Part shown: one piece after another, positions 526 to 7,582 of the stretch
Layout of the letters: each line of letters starts with the position of its first letter
Numbering within the stretch: position 1 is the first letter of the stretch
Assembly: GCA_026129485.1 (NCBI GenBank)
Contig: JAHCHY010000027.1
Coordinates: forward strand, 1-40,663
Reading direction: 5' to 3'
DNA length: 40,663 bases
Source of the DNA: Cyclobacteriaceae bacterium
Lineage (GTDB): Bacteria > Bacteroidota > Bacteroidia > Cytophagales > Cyclobacteriaceae
Position numbers and translations under genes: made by a program
Notes under the pieces: model-generated
What the model was told of the DNA's origin: nothing
The model's input: only the letters and a program-made list of their open reading frames with translations
Database searches by the model: none

Positions 526-3119
526 TAGTCATACAGATCTTTCCACAATTCTTTTTCCTTCTTGTCGTAGCGGGGCTTGCGCACCTTGTCCTTAACCGCA
601 TCGGGTTGCGTGCTCTGGCGCTTGAATATTCCCGCCCAGAATAACTTGATATTGGTAAAAATGGTTCTCTCGCCTTTTACATTGTTATCGCGGTTGTGTG
701 CAAACGTGGCATCCGGAAAATGCTTTTTATGGTTGAACTTATTCATGCGAATGTTACCCTGGTAATCGCCAATGCGGGCGTATGCTCTTCCGGGTGCGAT
801 TACTTTTAATGCATCCTTATCGGCATTAGGGGCGTGCCGGTAATTTTTGGTTAACCGCGCTTTGCCCGCGTATGAGGTAGCATCAGCAAATGATTTGGAG
901 TACTTAATGGTTTTAAGCGAAGCATCGGCACTGCTCGGGTTGTGCTTGTATTCCCAATAGCGTTTCATAATGCCGGAGTATTCACTGGCTTTGATGGTTG
1001 CCCGCGCAGGCGGCAGGCCGGGTAAGGCCCCTTTTGCCGATAGCTTATTTTTACCGGTTTCGCGTTGTTTAACCCGCGTGGTAATGGAGTTTACGGTATA
1101 CACATTTTCGTATGGGCTATGCTTTTTCAAAGCCTCTTCTGCGGCATTGGGGTTACGCACATATTCGCGTTTTAAAAGCGGCAGCCTGATCTTGCCCGAG
1201 TACCCCACCTCGCTGGCCTGTTTGCCGGTTGGCGTTCGCGGAGGTAAAGGCTGTTCCTTGTTGTTCCAGAGCTGGCCGCTTATGCTGCCTCCGCCTTTTT
1301 CAGGTTTGCGTGTACGATCATAGCCTGCCCAATCGTACCCTTCGCGGCTGAATGACTTGCGGGCGAAAGGTAAATTGCCCTGGAACCTGGCAGCCTTACT
1401 GGCGGAGTATTTGGCAGGCAAGGGCTGCTCCTTGTTATTCCATAGCTGCCCGCTTACACTGCCTCCGCCTTTCAGGGGCTTGCCTGCCCTGGCATAGCCG
1501 GACCAGTCATATCCTTCGCGGCTGAATGATTTTTTACGCCCGCGAATGTCGCCACTGTATCCGTAGCCTGCCTGGCTGAATTGTTTGGGGCCGCCTTTTA
1601 TGTTGCCTGTATAGCTCAATCCTTCCTGGCTGAAATTCCGCGAGGCGCGATCCTGGCGGAAGAAACCTTTGTAGTTGCCCTGGAAGCGGGCAGCCCGCTG
1701 ATCCAACGGCTGACGCACGGCTATGGGCATGTTGTTATTGTTTCTTCTGAATCCGCTAATGCTTCCGCCACCTTTAGGAGGCCTGGAAGTTCTGATGTTA
1801 CCAGAATAGCTTAACCCGGCCTGGCTAAAGCTGCGTTCTATCCTGGGCGTAGTGCCCCGGTAATTGGCCTGCATGTTGGCCGATTTTGGATTGCCCGGCC
1901 CACGCACAGGTATGGGTGCATTACGGGTGCCTTTCATTTTGGCTGAAATACTACCGCCACCCTTAACCGGTTTTATTCCGCGCAGCTTGCCCAGATCCTT
2001 GCGCATAAAATTGGCATTTGCTCCCGGTGCTTTTGCCATCAGGGGTTGATTGGATCTGTATTTTCCGGTTACCGAGCCGCCCCCTTTTTCCGGTTTAATA
2101 CCCTTTAGCCGGGCAAAGTCGCGCTTCATATAATTGCCGCCTATACCGGGTTGCCGGGGAGCCAGCGGCTTGTTCGATTTGTATAGCCCGGTTACCGAAC
2201 CACCGCCTTTTTTTGTTTTAACTCCGCTTAAGCGGGAAACATCCTTCTGAAGCATTCGTGCACTGAAGCCCGGCTTAATCCTGGGGTTGTCGCCACGTTC
2301 GCCTGCCACCTGGTTCTGGCGGCCTGCGCTTCTGCGGATAGCATGACCGGAAATATCACCTTTCCAGGCACGCTCACCCCGCCTGGAGGCAGTGGCGTAA
2401 CCTGATCTGAATGTGCCTTTGTAGGCACGATCGCCCCGGTCTTTTCGACCATAGTAAGGATCACCCGACCGGACGATCGGGTTTTCCGGTGATCGGAAAT
2501 TTTTGGTGCGTAAAGGTCTTCCTGCAAGATCGGTAGTAACAGCACGTTCGCCTTTCGAGTATTTTCCCCAGTACACATTTTTGCGCCCGCGTGTTACATA
2601 GGCTTGTGAGTTGGAACGTGGCGTTATTCTTTTTTTACGACCGGGCGGATCGTTATGGGTTTGCAATCGCGCCAAACGCGAAAGCTCTTTGCGGTTATTA
2701 TATGCTCTTTCTGGCGATTTGGATGAATGATTAACAAAGGGCCCTTTCTGCGGATAGATATTGGCGCGGCCCGCGTTGATGGACCGGGAACGGATACCTG
2801 CCGTCTTGCCGCCAATCGGTTTACCGGCCTGATCGCCCGATCGCCTCGAGGCTTTGTAAGGCGATGGCGCAGAATGTATTGCCCGTTGCGCTGAAGATTG
2901 GTTGAGTGTACGGAGCTTATACCCGGCAATATCTTTAGTGGTGGCTTTCTCTTTTCGCTTAACAGATTTAGCCCGTGTTTGCCGGATAGTTTTTTTGTTA
3001 TTAATAGGCCGTTTGTCCTGGGCAAGACCATCTTCTGCCGTAAGGCAAAACAACGCAACTAATCCCGTAAGGATCAGCACATGCATGCGCCTAAATAAAG
3101 AAGTAGTCCGGCTCTTCAA
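525..3119 (-). CDS. Secreted, basic, repeat-rich protein of unknown function
   Basis: An 864-residue protein I do not recognise as a named family. An N-terminal hydrophobic stretch ending near GLAQ (about residue 34) looks like a signal peptide. The rest is low-complexity, rich in G, S, N, K and R, with few acidic residues. Three repeat types are visible. KGGGS[IV][ST] occurs six times (residues 304, 345, 386, 449, 550, 608). Around it are [YW]-[STA]-G-x-[IYA] units such as YSGNIR, YSGDIR and YAGKAR. An N-terminal unit [KR]-x-G-[ED]-R-A occurs at about 188-252. C-terminal P-N-A-x-x-x-A-L-K-like units occur near 657, 728 and 764. It probably lies in the periplasm or at the cell surface. The start is uncertain: TTG at 3119 gives a basic signal-peptide n-region (KSRTTSLFRR), while ATG at 3086 would start at MHVLILTG. 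The TTG sits in a TATTTTG string that could instead be a -7 promoter box. It overlaps ytxJ by one base. Confidence 0.8.
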   Translation of the reverse strand: MKSRTTSLFRRMHVLILTGLVALFCLTAEDGLAQDKRPINNKKTIRQTRAKSVKRKEKATTKDIAGYKLRTLNQSSAQRAIHSAPSPYKASRRSGDQAGKPIGGKTAGIRSRSINAGRANIYPQKGPFVNHSSKSPERAYNNRKELSRLARLQTHNDPPGRKKRITPRSNSQAYVTRGRKNVYWGKYSKGERAVTTDLAGRPLRTKNFRSPENPIVRSGDPYYGRKDRGDRAYKGTFRSGYATASRRGERAWKGDISGHAIRRSAGRQNQVAGERGDNPRIKPGFSARMLQKDVSRLSGVKTKKGGGSVTGLYKSNKPLAPRQPGIGGNYMKRDFARLKGIKPEKGGGSVTGKYRSNQPLMAKAPGANANFMRKDLGKLRGIKPVKGGGSISAKMKGTRNAPIPVRGPGNPKSANMQANYRGTTPRIERSFSQAGLSYSGNIRTSRPPKGGGSISGFRRNNNNMPIAVRQPLDQRAARFQGNYKGFFRQDRASRNFSQEGLSYTGNIKGGPKQFSQAGYGYSGDIRGRKKSFSREGYDWSGYARAGKPLKGGGSVSGQLWNNKEQPLPAKYSASKAARFQGNLPFARKSFSREGYDWAGYDRTRKPEKGGGSISGQLWNNKEQPLPPRTPTGKQASEVGYSGKIRLPLLKREYVRNPNAAEEALKKHSPYENVYTVNSITTRVKQRETGKNKLSAKGALPGLPPARATIKASEYSGIMKRYWEYKHNPSSADASLKTIKYSKSFADATSYAGKARLTKNYRHAPNADKDALKVIAPGRAYARIGDYQGNIRMNKFNHKKHFPDATFAHNRDNNVKGERTIFTNIKLFWAGIFKRQSTQPDAVKDKVRKPRYDKKEKELWKDLYD

Positions 3120-3196
3120 AATATGGACAATAAACAGGCTAAGATAAGGAAAAAGCGGAAGCCGCTCTTTGCTCTCAGGTTAACGTTTCAATTCGC

Positions 3197-5236
3197 TCAG
3201 AATTTTAGAAGGGTTTCTATTCTGCTTTTTAACCGGCCTTTCGGCAAAAAATTCTGCTCAAGTGTAGCGGCAAACGGAATAGCGGTATCCAAGCTGGCCT
3301 CGCGCATTACAGGTGCATCGAGATATTGAAATGCGTGCTCACCAATCCATGCGGCAATCTCAGCTCCAATGCCCCCGGTAAGCGTATCTTCATGCAATAC
3401 CAAAACGCGGTGGGTTTTCTTTGCGGTTTCCAGCACCGCTTCTTTATCCCATGGTAGTAATGTGCGCAGGTCAAGCACATCGGCCGAAACATCGGGTAAT
3501 TGCCTGAGTATTTCCTGTGCCCAATGCACGCCCATGCCGTACGTAATAATGGAGAGATCGCTGCCTTCGCTTACCCGGTTTGCCTTGCCGACTTCTATGG
3601 TGTAATAATCATCCGGAATGGTTGCCTTGATAGAGCGATACAAGAGCTTATGCTCAAAATAGAGATACGGGTTCGGATCGTTAAACGCAGCACACAACAA
3701 TCCTTTGGCATCGTACGGGTTGGATGGATACACAATTTTTAAACCGGGGGTGTGGAAGAACCACGCTTCGTTGCTCTGGCTGTGGAACGGCCCGGCAGCC
3801 GTGCCGGCACCGGTTGGCATACGTACTACCACATCGGCAGGCTGGCCCCAGCGCCAATGGGCTTTGGCCAGGTTATTGACAATCTGCGTCATCCCTTCCG
3901 ATACAAAATCGGCAAACTGCATTTCAACCATAGCCTTCATGCCTTTTATGGACAGGCCCAGCCCGGCCCCGATAATGGCCGACTCGCACAGGGGCGTGTT
4001 GCGCACCCGGTCTTTGCCAAACTTTTCCACAAAACCTTCCGTGATTTTGAACACCCCGCCATAGTCGGCAATGTCCTGCCCCATCAGCACGAGGTTATCG
4101 TGGCGTTCCATGCTTTGGCGAAGGCCATCGCTTATGGCATCGATAAAACGTTTTTCAGATGACCTCACCCCTGCCTGTCCGGCAGGCAGGCCCGGCCCCT
4201 CTCCAGAGGAGAGGGGAGAGATGACGCTTTGATTAAACGGTGCATGCACATCATCCAGCTCCGTTAGTGTATCGGGTTGCGGAAGGGTTTCCTTGAACGC
4301 TTCTTCTAAACCGGCTTCAATTTCTTTTTTGATTTTTTTACGAAGCGCATCCCTGTACTTTGCATCGATTACACCTTCGGCAATTAAATATTGCTCGTAA
4401 TTTTCTACCGGGTCTTTCTTGGCCCAGGCATCCATCAATTCTTTGGGAACATACCTGGTGCCGCTGGCTTCTTCATGTCCGCGCATGCGGAAGGTAAGGC
4501 ACTCCAATAATACAGGGCGTGGTTTTTTACGCATTGATTCTGCGAGGTTCTTTGTGGTATGATAAACTTCAAGAATGTTGTTGCCGTCTGCCTGTATGCC
4601 CTCAATGCCATAACCAATCGCTTTATCAACAAATGCCTTGCAGCGAAATTGTTCCCGGCTTGGCGTTGATAACCCGTAGCCGTTGTTTTCAACCACAAAG
4701 ATTACCGGTAAATCCCACACGGCTGCCACGTTGAGGGCTTCATGAAAATCGCCTTCGCTGGTTCCGCCATCGCCATTAAAAACTACGGTAACCTTCCCTG
4801 CCTGTCCGGCAGGCAGGTTTTCTTTTTTTAATATGGAAGCAAGCGCAATACCATCGGCTACTCCGTTTTGCGGGCCAAGGTGCGAGATCATGCCTACAAT
4901 ATGATGCTCGTTGCTGCCAAAGTGGAAAGACCTGTCGCGCCCCTTAGTAAAGCCCGAAGCCGTACCCTGCCATTGCGCAAACAGCCGGGCAAACGGAATA
5001 CCGCGCCCCGTAAATACACCGAGGTTGCGATGCATGGGCAGGATGTATTCGTCTTTTTCCAATGCTTCGGTAATGCCTACGGCAATAGCTTCCTGCCCGA
5101 TGCCGCTAAACCATTTGCTGATTTTGTTTTGCCGCAGCAAAACCAGCATTTTTTCTTCTATAAGTCTGGGGAACAGGATGGTTTTGTAGAGGTGTAGCAA
5201 TATATCGTTTGGATAATGCTGGCGATTATACTTCAT
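3197..5236 (-). CDS. 2-oxoacid dehydrogenase E1 component, alpha and beta subunits fused
   Basis: Thiamine-diphosphate dehydrogenase that decarboxylates branched-chain 2-oxoacids or pyruvate and passes the acyl group to a lipoyl E2. The E1-alpha half (about residues 10-330) has SGIGQEAIAVG and the TPP motif GDGGTSEGDFHEA...ENN (155-185). The E1-beta half (about 362-679) has LMGQDIADYGGVFK, GLSIKGMKAMVEMQFADF and LDLRTLLPWD. Alpha/beta fusions of this kind are common in Bacteroidota. I start at ATG 5236 (MKYNRQHYP, 679 aa), because a further 22 residues upstream would lie over a probable promoter. Two LPAGQAG heptapeptides (residues 141-147 and 350-356) are encoded by identical 21-bp palindromes. 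The second interrupts SPLSSGEGPG...VRS, itself a repeat-derived peptide in the interdomain linker. Substrate specificity cannot be told from sequence. No E2 or E3 gene is adjacent. Confidence 0.9.
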   Translation of the reverse strand: MKYNRQHYPNDILLHLYKTILFPRLIEEKMLVLLRQNKISKWFSGIGQEAIAVGITEALEKDEYILPMHRNLGVFTGRGIPFARLFAQWQGTASGFTKGRDRSFHFGSNEHHIVGMISHLGPQNGVADGIALASILKKENLPAGQAGKVTVVFNGDGGTSEGDFHEALNVAAVWDLPVIFVVENNGYGLSTPSREQFRCKAFVDKAIGYGIEGIQADGNNILEVYHTTKNLAESMRKKPRPVLLECLTFRMRGHEEASGTRYVPKELMDAWAKKDPVENYEQYLIAEGVIDAKYRDALRKKIKKEIEAGLEEAFKETLPQPDTLTELDDVHAPFNQSVISPLSSGEGPGLPAGQAGVRSSEKRFIDAISDGLRQSMERHDNLVLMGQDIADYGGVFKITEGFVEKFGKDRVRNTPLCESAIIGAGLGLSIKGMKAMVEMQFADFVSEGMTQIVNNLAKAHWRWGQPADVVVRMPTGAGTAAGPFHSQSNEAWFFHTPGLKIVYPSNPYDAKGLLCAAFNDPNPYLYFEHKLLYRSIKATIPDDYYTIEVGKANRVSEGSDLSIITYGMGVHWAQEILRQLPDVSADVLDLRTLLPWDKEAVLETAKKTHRVLVLHEDTLTGGIGAEIAAWIGEHAFQYLDAPVMREASLDTAIPFAATLEQNFLPKGRLKSRIETLLKF
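4161..4216. repeat. Composite repeat: outer GGAGAGGGG-type palindromic element split by a 21-bp palindrome
   Basis: If 4170-4190 is removed, the flanks join as GACCTCACCCCCGGCCCC followed by TCTCCAGAGGAGAGGGG. I recall this as a very common dispersed Bacteroidota element, translated in other proteins as PLSxGEGPGVR. The inner inverted repeat CCCCTCTCC / GGAGAGGGG (4196-4216 region) can form a hairpin. It falls in the linker between the E1 alpha and beta domains and keeps the reading frame. Confidence 0.75.
4170..4190. repeat. 21-bp palindromic mini-repeat, copy 1 (nested)
   Basis: Arms CCTGCCTG and CAGGCAGG are perfectly complementary around the 5-base loop TCCGG. On the coding strand it reads LPAGQAG, exactly seven codons. 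It is identical to the copy at 4797-4817 and sits inside another repeat. Confidence 0.9.
4797..4817. repeat. 21-bp palindromic mini-repeat, copy 2
   Basis: Base-for-base identical to 4170-4190. It encodes LPAGQAG in the loop just before the TPP-binding strand of E1-alpha. Removing it joins ...KKEN to KVTVVFNGDGG, which reads like an uninterrupted E1-alpha. Confidence 0.9.
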
Positions 5237-5255
5237 GCTTTTATTTTGAATAATG

Positions 5256-5287
5256 CAATATAAAGGGGAGAAAAATATTCGGTCAAA
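5256..5287 (-). promoter_or_regulatory. Possible promoter of the E1 fusion gene
   Basis: On the minus strand TTTG (5284-5287) is followed after 21 bases by TATATTG (5256-5262), close to the Bacteroidota TTTG / TAnnTTTG pattern, about 20 bases before the ATG at 5236. The -7 box is imperfect. The 5237-5425 gap also has to hold the divergent antiporter promoter, for which I see only a poorly spaced TTTG (5385) and TAGATTG (5405). Confidence 0.35.
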
Positions 5288-5425
5288 TCGAAAACTCGTC
5301 AAAGATAAGTATTGTAACCTGTCTTTTATTTATCGGCATAGCCGAAACAGGATGCAGTGTAATTTTTAAAACAGGTGTATGTGATTTGATTACATTTACC
5401 CCGGTAGATTGTTAAGTGATTTAGT

Positions 5426-7582
5426 ATGATAGAATTTTTCAAAGACTTAGTGCATGATTTTGAACTACCACTGGCAAATCCTGTACTTATTTTTTCATTG
5501 ATTTTGCTAATCATATTGTTATCGCCCATGCTTCTTCGGAAAGTAAATATCCCGGGTATTATCGGGTTAATACTTTCCGGGGTGGTAGTTGGCCCGCACG
5601 GGTTTAACATTTTGGAAAAGAGCTCGGCCGTTGAACTGTTTTCTACCATCGGGCTACTGTATATCATGTTTATAGCCGGCCTGGAGCTGGATATGAACGA
5701 GTTTAAATCAAACCGAAATAAGAGCCTGGTTTTTGGCTTGTTTACATTCATTTTCCCATTATCGATCGGGTTCCCGGTTTGCTATTACTTTTTACAATAT
5801 GATTTTAATGCAAGCCTTCTTACGGCCAGTATGTTTGCCACGCATACTTTGGTTGCGTACCCGATTGTGAGCAGGCTGGGGGTTTCCAAAAATCAGGCGG
5901 TTGCCATCTCTGTGGGCGGAACGATACTGACTGATACGGCTGTACTGATTATCCTGGCCGTAATTATGGGTAACCACCAGGGAAGTCTAACACAGGAATT
6001 CTGGATTCGCCTGGGAGGCTCATTGGCAATCTTTGCCGTTATTATCTTCTTTATAATTCCCCGCGTGGCCAAATGGTTTTTTAAAAAGCTGGAAAGCGAA
6101 AAACACTCGCATTACATTTTTGTTTTATCCATCGTTTTTTTTGCAGCCTTCCTGGCCGAGGTTGCCGGTGTTGAACCGATTATAGGAGCGTTTGCTGCAG
6201 GGCTGGCGTTGAACAAGCTCATTCCGCACTCATCGGCATTAATGAACCGGATTGAGTTTATCGGCAACTCGCTATTCATTCCTTTTTTCCTGATCAGTGT
6301 AGGTATGCTGGTGGATGTGCGTATAATTTTAAGCGGCCCCGCAGCGCTTATTGTAGCCGGAACACTTTCGGTAGTGGCGCTTGCCGGAAAATGGGTGGCC
6401 GCCTGGTTTACCCAACTGGTGTTCAGGTATTCGAAAGCGCAACGGCAATTAATATTTGGATTGAGCAGCGCACATGCGGCAGCCACACTGGCGGTAATCC
6501 TGGTTGGCTACAGGGCGCAGATACTGGATGAGAATATTTTAAACGGAACAATCATCCTGATTTTAATTACGTGTATCGTGGCATCGTTTGCTACAGAGAA
6601 GGCTGCCAAAAAAATTGTAGTTGAAACGGAACAGGATCCCACTGCTTTTGATAGCGCAAAACCGGTTCATAACGAACATATTTTACTCCCCATTGCCAAT
6701 ATGGAAAGCATCGAAAAGCTGCTGGAGTTTACCGTGCTTATTAAAGATAAAAAATCGGCTAACCCGATATCATTTCTTTCGGTGGTGTCTAATAATAACG
6801 AAGCGGAGGCCAATATTATACGAACCCGTAATAAGCTGGAAGATTTTGTTAAGCAGGCATCGGCATCTGAAAACAAGCTTAATATCATTGCCACCATAGA
6901 TCATAACGCAGCCAGTGGCATAGCCCGAATTGCGCGCGAGATTATGGCTGATTTTATTGTGTTAGGCTGGCCCAGGCGGGCAGGCATTTTTGATAAGCTT
7001 TTGGGCGAGAAAATTGAAAACATATTAAACAATACCGACAAAACCGTATTCATTTGCCATTTGGAAAAACCTATGGTAGTTAACAGAAGAATTTTTGTTG
7101 CTGCCCCGCCCTTAACCGAGCACGAAGTTGGTTTTGAATTATGGGTTTCAAAAATTGCCAAGCTGGGGCAGGAGCTTAGCGTTTCCGTTCAGGTATATTG
7201 CAACGAAGCCACATCCAAAGCGCTGGAAAAGCTAATGAGGAAAGAAAAATTTTCAACCCCCATCACAATAGCATTGTTTAATGATTGGGAAGACTTCCTG
7301 ATCTTATGCAGAGATGTAAGGGTAGATGACCTGTTTGTATTAATTTCTGCCAGGAAAGGAGCTACTTCATATTCAAGCTTGCTGGAAAGCATACCGCTGA
7401 AATTAGAGAAGTACTTCCCGTACAACAGCAAACTCTTAATTTATCCGCAGCAGTTTAACCAGAATTTTATGGATAACGGGTTTGAAGATTTTACAGCCGA
7501 GCCCTTAAACAAAGGAATAGAAACCCTTCAAAAAATAGGAAAAGGCATTGGCAACATCTTTAAGAAAGAAGCTGAGGATTAA
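5426..7582 (+). CDS. Cation:proton antiporter (CPA2 type) with C-terminal universal-stress-like region
   Basis: A 718-residue inner-membrane protein. Residues from about 18 to 400 form a dozen hydrophobic segments with the Na+/H+ exchanger (CPA2, KefB/NapA-like) signatures IPGIIGLILSGVVVGPHGFN, GLLYIMFIAGLELD and VEPIIGAFAAGLALN. Proteins of this type exchange Na+ or K+ for protons in pH and osmotic control. After residue 415 a cytoplasmic region begins HILLPIANMESIEKLLEF and includes FIVLGWPRRAG and TVFICHLEKP, resembling one or two UspA-like domains that may sense nucleotides or stress. There is no TrkA-N domain of the KefC kind. It is divergent from the E1 gene, and an M16 peptidase follows after 34 bp, so these two may share a transcript. 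Confidence 0.88.
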   Translation: MIEFFKDLVHDFELPLANPVLIFSLILLIILLSPMLLRKVNIPGIIGLILSGVVVGPHGFNILEKSSAVELFSTIGLLYIMFIAGLELDMNEFKSNRNKSLVFGLFTFIFPLSIGFPVCYYFLQYDFNASLLTASMFATHTLVAYPIVSRLGVSKNQAVAISVGGTILTDTAVLIILAVIMGNHQGSLTQEFWIRLGGSLAIFAVIIFFIIPRVAKWFFKKLESEKHSHYIFVLSIVFFAAFLAEVAGVEPIIGAFAAGLALNKLIPHSSALMNRIEFIGNSLFIPFFLISVGMLVDVRIILSGPAALIVAGTLSVVALAGKWVAAWFTQLVFRYSKAQRQLIFGLSSAHAAATLAVILVGYRAQILDENILNGTIILILITCIVASFATEKAAKKIVVETEQDPTAFDSAKPVHNEHILLPIANMESIEKLLEFTVLIKDKKSANPISFLSVVSNNNEAEANIIRTRNKLEDFVKQASASENKLNIIATIDHNAASGIARIAREIMADFIVLGWPRRAGIFDKLLGEKIENILNNTDKTVFICHLEKPMVVNRRIFVAAPPLTEHEVGFELWVSKIAKLGQELSVSVQVYCNEATSKALEKLMRKEKFSTPITIALFNDWEDFLILCRDVRVDDLFVLISARKGATSYSSLLESIPLKLEKYFPYNSKLLIYPQQFNQNFMDNGFEDFTAEPLNKGIETLQKIGKGIGNIFKKEAED

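Follow-up and report, generated by a model that had tools for sequence, protein, structure and literature searches.

A dispersed 21-bp palindrome that adds seven codons to bacterial genes, nested within a second repeat in an E1 dehydrogenase gene

Two short repeats, one inside the other, are translated as part of a 2-oxo acid dehydrogenase E1 gene of a Cyclobacteriaceae bacterium. The inner one was shown to be a single copy of a dispersed 21-bp element, which inserts cleanly and adds seven codons to the genes that receive it. Taken as a whole, the explanation that we find best, and that we hold with middling confidence, is that of a dispersed 21-bp hairpin which came to the E1 gene after the outer repeat, by a single-strand, hairpin-targeted insertion carried out by a putative enzyme acting in trans. 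By analogy, the element would work like the protein-coding palindromes of Rickettsia and like REPs, but without GTAG or CGTC tags. A broader proposal, which is tentative and which we doubt somewhat more than we believe, is that a single 21-bp hairpin could be a horizontally spreading, near-minimal mobile unit among many phyla and phages, targeting hairpin loops, including those of its own copies, repeatedly adding LPxGQAG to housekeeping proteins and being moved by a putative enzyme yet to be recognised.

Earlier examples of protein-coding palindromes came mainly from Rickettsia, together with occasional intragenic REPs. What is new here is an exact 21-mer that is met repeatedly in core enzymes of distantly related bacteria. 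Its empty sites are clean, its copies in genes favor one frame, its target rule concerns a single base, and it nests in hairpins. The old question of how tiny elements move is thereby opened to testing, by comparison as well as in vitro. A word of caution is that a seven-residue loop in a predicted enzyme can be mobile DNA, and not a functional feature.

Nested repeats in the E1 gene

The window, i.e. the whole stretch of 40,663 nucleotides that was analyzed, is contig C20 of genome G000 (Cyclobacteriaceae bacterium, 4.08 Mb, 98% complete). The product of the E1 gene (Table 1) contains the Pfam domains E1_dh (residues 40-342), Transket_pyr (387-556) and Transketolase_C (572-688), and its sequence relatives in the PDB are E1 chains of 2-oxo acid or pyruvate dehydrogenases. 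Since E1_dh ends at residue 342 and the next domain starts at residue 387, the insert at 4170-4190 is situated in the alpha/beta linker. The inner palindrome is composed of an 8-bp stem and a 5-base loop. When the outer flanks are rejoined, the resulting GACCTCACCCCCGGCCCCTCTCC matches the uninterrupted outer repeat both at L026, elsewhere in G000, and in the E1 gene of genome G009, with one base difference in each case.

A sequence-only reading of this DNA had described a 21-bp palindrome nested in a second repeat and translated in frame, with outer flanks that rejoin as one element. The sequence at 4161-4216, in an E1 frame that stays open over 701 aa, confirms the nesting, and the uninterrupted copies at L026 and in G009 bear out the rejoining. 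Its statement that both pieces are multiples of three stands for the inner palindrome (21 bp) but not for the outer repeat, whose ends, and hence length, cannot be fixed. The other copy in the same gene, at 4797-4817, had gone unmentioned.

Allowing up to two mismatches, the inner pattern was found at two places, compared to no matches in 100 shuffles, and the outer core, with up to three mismatches, at one place, again with none in 100 shuffles. An Rfam search of window positions 3000-5600 gave no match.

Table 1. Position of the E1 gene and of the repeats found within it.
Feature	Position	Strand	Evidence
Fused E1 alpha/beta 2-oxo acid dehydrogenase gene, both inserts within	3197..5302	minus	ORF, 701 aa; Pfam; PDB relatives
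Outer repeat, left piece GACCTCACC	4161..4169	none	uninterrupted copies elsewhere in G000 and in G009 E1
Inner 21-bp palindrome CCTGCCTGTCCGGCAGGCAGG	4170..4190	read as LPAGQAG on minus strand	not in the outer repeat of G009; present in G026
Outer repeat, right piece CCCGGCCCCTCTCCAGAGGAGAGGGG, with CCCTCTCC...GGAGAGGG hairpin	4191..4216	none	sequence and genome copies
Second identical 21-bp palindrome	4797..4817	none; also LPAGQAG	E1 alpha part, a short way ahead of the GDG motif

Copies of both repeats in the genome

A genome-wide count of both motifs, which had been named as a check on the first description, placed the inner motif at 14 and the outer core at 12 places in G000 (up to one mismatch each), while the backwards control patterns were found nowhere. 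The inner repeat is consequently a short stem-loop of the 20-40 bp that mark GTAG/CGTC REPs, repeated in the genome as these are. Two of the 12 outer copies, i.e. those in E1 and at C19:24640, have the inner palindrome at the same junction, compared to a chance expectation of about 0.0016 on the assumption that the two are independent, an assumption that composite copying would break. Outer copies without the inner palindrome predominate (10 of 12). Several outer copies are found at or just upstream of gene starts, as judged by open frames, and the E1 copy is among the few situated well inside a gene. Longer outer forms, with CCTCACCC and GGGTGAGG on opposite sides of the CCCTCTCC/GGAGAGGG hairpin, occur in G000 at L021, L023, L024 and L025, and in E1 the outer repeat resembles half of such a form.

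E1 linker alleles and order of insertion

The E1 query was matched in all 58 genomes, G000 included, in some only with a paralogue. The best 30 loci were taken, and the linkers of 29 of these were read by eye (L071 was left out). Neither repeat was found in 24 linkers, one had the outer alone (G009), two had both (G000 and G026), and the last two held a decayed outer (G008) and a different, outer-like insert (G011). The linker of G031, counted among the 24, may be a further decayed outer. All three alleles foreseen from the sequence alone, i.e. neither repeat, outer only and both, are hence represented.

In the E1 tree, G000 falls in a five-row fork with G009, G023, G008 and G031 (100/98), within which there is no branching order. 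Because G009, from this same fork, has the outer alone, the simplest reading of these sequences is that the outer repeat came first and that one mini-repeat landed in another, as the sequence-only reading had proposed. Its notion of the alpha/beta linker as a tolerant site agrees with the outer-like insert of G011, which belongs to a separate part of the tree. Two outcomes had been named as speaking against it, namely a linker that is one conserved segment among the relatives and motifs that are not repeated elsewhere in the genome; the linker proved to be no such segment, and both motifs are repeated in G000. It is also next to impossible that the linker is simply a conserved stretch of protein of the ordinary kind, in which the DNA palindrome is incidental. 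The frame is indeed open through the segment, but the linkers vary in presence and absence of the repeats within the genus, in an allele series that contradicts such a feature, and the same DNA is found in unrelated genes and between genes.

The outer and inner repeats might instead have reached E1 as one composite unit, with no insertion of the inner into a resident outer. The identical nested junction is seen at C19:24640 of G000, in the E1 gene of G026 and, with one mismatch in the inner, at L104 of G011, and in Arenibacter the inner is placed at one fixed junction within a larger repeat in the four copies read (L132, L169, L174, L206), i.e. composites do multiply. We nevertheless hold this to be unlikely for E1, as the outer stands alone at this position in G009, ten of the G000 outer copies are without this inner, and the outer sequence differs between the two G000 composites.

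The outer-then-inner order has also to be weighed against the position of G026, which has both repeats and pairs in the E1 tree with G029 (96/92), which has neither. To account for the state of G026, one has to assume recombination, a separate hit, or that repeats were lost elsewhere. In the stretch around the linker, the nearest sequence to that of G026 is the one of G009 (0.85, compared to 0.77 for G000 and 0.65 for G029), and recombination or an independent hit may explain what is seen in G026. G009 might also have lost the inner repeat by an exact deletion. The same observations on G026 would suit a history in which the ancestor of this part of the genus already had both repeats and the inner was later cut precisely out of the G009 gene, leaving the insertion order unreadable. 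This we judge to be quite unlikely, since it would require not only that exactly 21 bp were lost in G009 but also that both repeats disappeared or decayed in G029, G023, G008 and G031, and no partial inner remnant was seen by eye in the 29 linkers.

Clean insertion at empty sites

Empty-site tests were performed at six of the G000 sites, namely the E1 linker, E1 4797, GlyA (serine hydroxymethyltransferase), kynureninase, DapF (diaminopimelate epimerase) and ThrRS (threonyl-tRNA synthetase), out of approximately 13 in-gene copies in this genome. The E1 4797 site is empty in all 18 relatives whose sequence there was compared, and those in GlyA, kynureninase, DapF and ThrRS are empty in all of the 7, 6, 6 and 6 close relatives, respectively. 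At every one of the six sites the gain is exactly 21 bp, with neither target duplication nor net deletion. In-frame insertion into conserved genes with empty orthologues, a feature of protein-coding palindromes like the Rickettsia palindromic elements (RPEs), is thus seen at all six, and the target site duplication of classical DDE-transposon MITEs at none of them. The boundary of the DapF insert is ambiguous, as the relatives already have 14 of the 21 element letters adjoining the insertion site; at E1 4797, the base adjoining the insert also differs from the relatives.

Could the palindrome have arisen locally, when replication switched templates at hairpins, and without a dedicated enzyme? 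The self-nested and partly duplicated copies point in that direction, as does the native 14-bp match to the element that adjoins the DapF copy. However, the same 21 letters stand under record titles of many phyla, and there are empty sites without an evident local source (E1 4797, ThrRS), which makes local manufacture very unlikely compared with insertion of a dispersed element.

Reading frame and a 20-bp sister

We collected 171 distinct copies, 90 of which lie in clear open frames (coding status was assigned by open-frame length, not by annotation). Over the six combinations of orientation and frame these 90 are distributed as 56, 13, 9, 5, 4 and 3, the 56 being read as LPAGQAG or LPTGQAG where chance would give 15 (binomial p ~4e-22, with copies treated as independent; L009 and L023 are one site counted twice, so that 56/90 is effectively 55/89, and the orthologous E1 copies of G000 and G026 are both counted). 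As the remaining five frames of the element are likewise without stops, the preference for one frame suggests that the peptide is under selection and speaks against the insert being taken out of the message. Judging from these frames, the insert appears to be translated and filtered by selection in genes. Removal at the RNA level, by a mini-intron or by ribosomal bypass, was set aside because it would predict no frame bias. The bias is not general in viral contigs, where the favored frame accounts for 5 of 16 open-frame copies, all five from one contig.

A 20-bp sister palindrome, which alone would shift the frame, is present in 26 of 38 genomes picked for having the 21-mer. Six of 57 20-mers lie in genes, as opposed to 19 of 42 21-mers (Fisher p 1.3e-4), the two sets coming from overlapping, non-identical genomes and from stretches chosen by hand among the matches listed. 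Within G451 alone, a count by eye gave 2/7 and 8/9, respectively (p 0.035). In Lutibacter G452, by the same criterion, no 21-mers (0/7) and no 20-mers (0/9) are located in genes. G452 and the viral contigs speak against a reading by translation and selection.

Some further arrangements of these palindromes were noted. Seen by eye, the surroundings of the 20-mer at L418, L419, L379 and L422 resemble the D-arm of a tRNA gene represented by its 5' half, with an intact tRNA lying a few hundred bases away; three of these tRNA-like fragments are Leu-like and one is found beside tRNA-Arg. ARAGORN detected the intact tRNAs near the four loci; at the fragments it found no tRNA, whether the insert was kept or taken out. 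Eight 20-bp sister palindromes are gathered within approximately 32 kb at G064:C2:1200428-1232722, possibly one acquired region, and four exact copies of the element, about 3 kb apart at G349:C1:3780166-3789248, may represent an array of a repeated gene with the insert.

Distribution among genomes, phyla and viruses

With up to one mismatch, the 21-mer was found in 12 of the 58 genomes in the set of relatives, and, among 395 genomes sampled across the phylum, 16 have the exact 21-mer; G000 is included in both numbers. Scanning of named genomes yielded at least 117 stretches with the element, and titles are known for 80 among the matches listed. According to the record titles, the matches listed belong to Bacteroidota, Patescibacteria, Omnitrophota, Nitrospirota, Chloroflexota, Elusimicrobiota, Thermodesulfobacteriota and Pseudomonadota, some of the titles being placed in the phylum to which we take them to belong. 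Most of the listed records are metagenome bins, which are prone to mis-binning, and those beyond Bacteroidota are exclusively bins. The records not labelled as bins are from Arenibacter, Salegentibacter, Muricauda and Pleomorphovibrio; as all four genera are Bacteroidota, the cross-phylum spread rests on bins.

The element was also found in 25 stretches of viral contigs. It is present in six exact copies on the 28.8-kb viral contig IMGVR_UViG_3300038551_000082 (L282, L279, L290). Open frames contain five of these, and one 339-aa ORF on this contig contains three copies.

Target base and nesting in hairpins

The noncoding copies have a pyrimidine at +1 in 26 of 26 C-type cases and a purine at -1 in 37 of 42 T-type cases. 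When 196 sites were pooled in one orientation, the -1 base was a purine in 94% (0.91 bits), followed in information by +1 (0.22 bits, with A at 6% of the sites), and no other position exceeded 0.13 bits. No longer target motif or tetranucleotide was detected in the flanks beyond -1 and +1, and the flanks of the 196 sites do not contain the conserved unpaired GTAG or CGTC tag that is found at one end of the corresponding REPs.

Noncoding copies are about three times more common in other hairpins than displaced controls are. Counting stems of at least 7 bp, the junctions of 27 out of 164 copies fall in a hairpin, compared to 7.9 on average (15 at most) for displaced positions. After removal of duplicate host repeats, this is the case for 20 of 79 noncoding copies (control mean 6.1; none of 22 controls reaches 20) and for 8 of 90 coding copies (control mean 4.3; none of 22 reaches 8), the coding excess being weak and gone at stems of at least 8 bp (3 compared to 2.3). 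Among the hairpins that serve as hosts are further REP-like repeats, one repeat next to a PF01797 gene (L266), the L351 repeat, which presumably is of CGTC type, and the element's own copies. Self-nesting near the tip was observed at L231, L236, L133 and L219 and in the kynureninase gene of G000, where a variant palindrome lies inside another copy with the frame open. Hairpin hosts may mean tolerance rather than targeting. In Arenibacter, the palindrome is nested at a fixed junction in a larger palindromic repeat (CCCTAAAG...CTTTAGGG; L132, L169, L174, L206).

Candidate mechanism and known systems

The most likely mechanism is a single-strand, hairpin-targeted insertion by a putative enzyme in trans. 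The element would travel as a folded single-stranded hairpin, and the enzyme would insert it beside a purine (-1, in the orientation of the 196-site pool), with a preference for hairpin loops or other single-stranded targets, as HUH transposases of the IS200/IS605 and REP types might have. Copies may pass between species on phages. Such insertion would account for three observations, namely that targets are not duplicated, that the constrained base lies on one side and that copies are repeatedly nested in other hairpins and in the element's own copies. Orientation relative to local GC skew, a weak proxy for the lagging strand, showed no bias for noncoding copies (37/73), and a signal in genes is explicable by gene strand.

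Among known systems, RPEs are described as short palindromic repeats that occur in intergenic regions as well as within genes, where they are read in frame as part of conserved proteins, one such product having been shown to be active; they measure 105-146 bp and are Rickettsia-specific, RPE-4 and RPE-6 being CGTC-type and REP-sized (PMC2229807; PMC3733652). The 21-bp element resembles these protein-coding palindromes in having scattered copies, both intergenic and intragenic, and in its in-frame position in conserved proteins, and differs from them in its length of 21 bp, its occurrence under titles of several phyla and on viral contigs, and its nesting in other hairpins. REPs are palindromes of 20-40 bp, with 8-9 bp stems and 4-5 base loops in the CGTC families; they are found mainly between genes and also inside genes, and the CGTC REPs are said to be without a dedicated transposase (PMC3733652). 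What the element shares with GTAG/CGTC REPs is a 21-bp hairpin with an 8-bp stem and a 5-base loop, as well as copies between and in genes; it is set apart by the lack of the tag by which each of these REP super-families is defined, by a single strongly constrained flanking base and by copies in other hairpin repeats. No paper on this element was found by phenomenon in the literature searched, which most subscription papers lie outside, and the same literature contained none of LPAGQAG, LPTGQAG, PAGRQAG and CCTGCCTGTCCGG, with matches to shorter fragments of the element apparently on unrelated subjects only.

The hairpins of REPs are processed as single strands by TnpA-REP (PMC8266576; PMC6006769). 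The element's hairpin is of about the same size as the ends of IS200/IS605 elements and as those of REP/TnpA-REP (RAYT) systems. Insertion of the IS200/IS605 type proceeds without target duplication. Unlike in these systems, no guide or target tetranucleotide was found. A search of G000 for PF01797, the REP transposase family, gave no match, and among the genomes tested the family does not follow the motif, being present in 29 of 35 with the motif and in 8 of 10 without it. Fifty PF01797 loci, out of more than 100, were scanned, and three of these (L266, L350, L351) have a near copy in their flanks, two of them inside another repeat. A RAYT as mobiliser is thus unsupported by presence and by linkage alike. 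The arrangement of RAYT-mobilised REPs, i.e. copies of the repeat on both sides of a cognate tyrosine transposase gene, was not encountered among the loci scanned, with one possible exception in another genome (L274). There, a Y1 transposase gene (PF01797) is situated between 20-bp and shortened sister palindromes, both in TACCGGGTAC repeats, which could hint at a linkage to the PF01797 gene.
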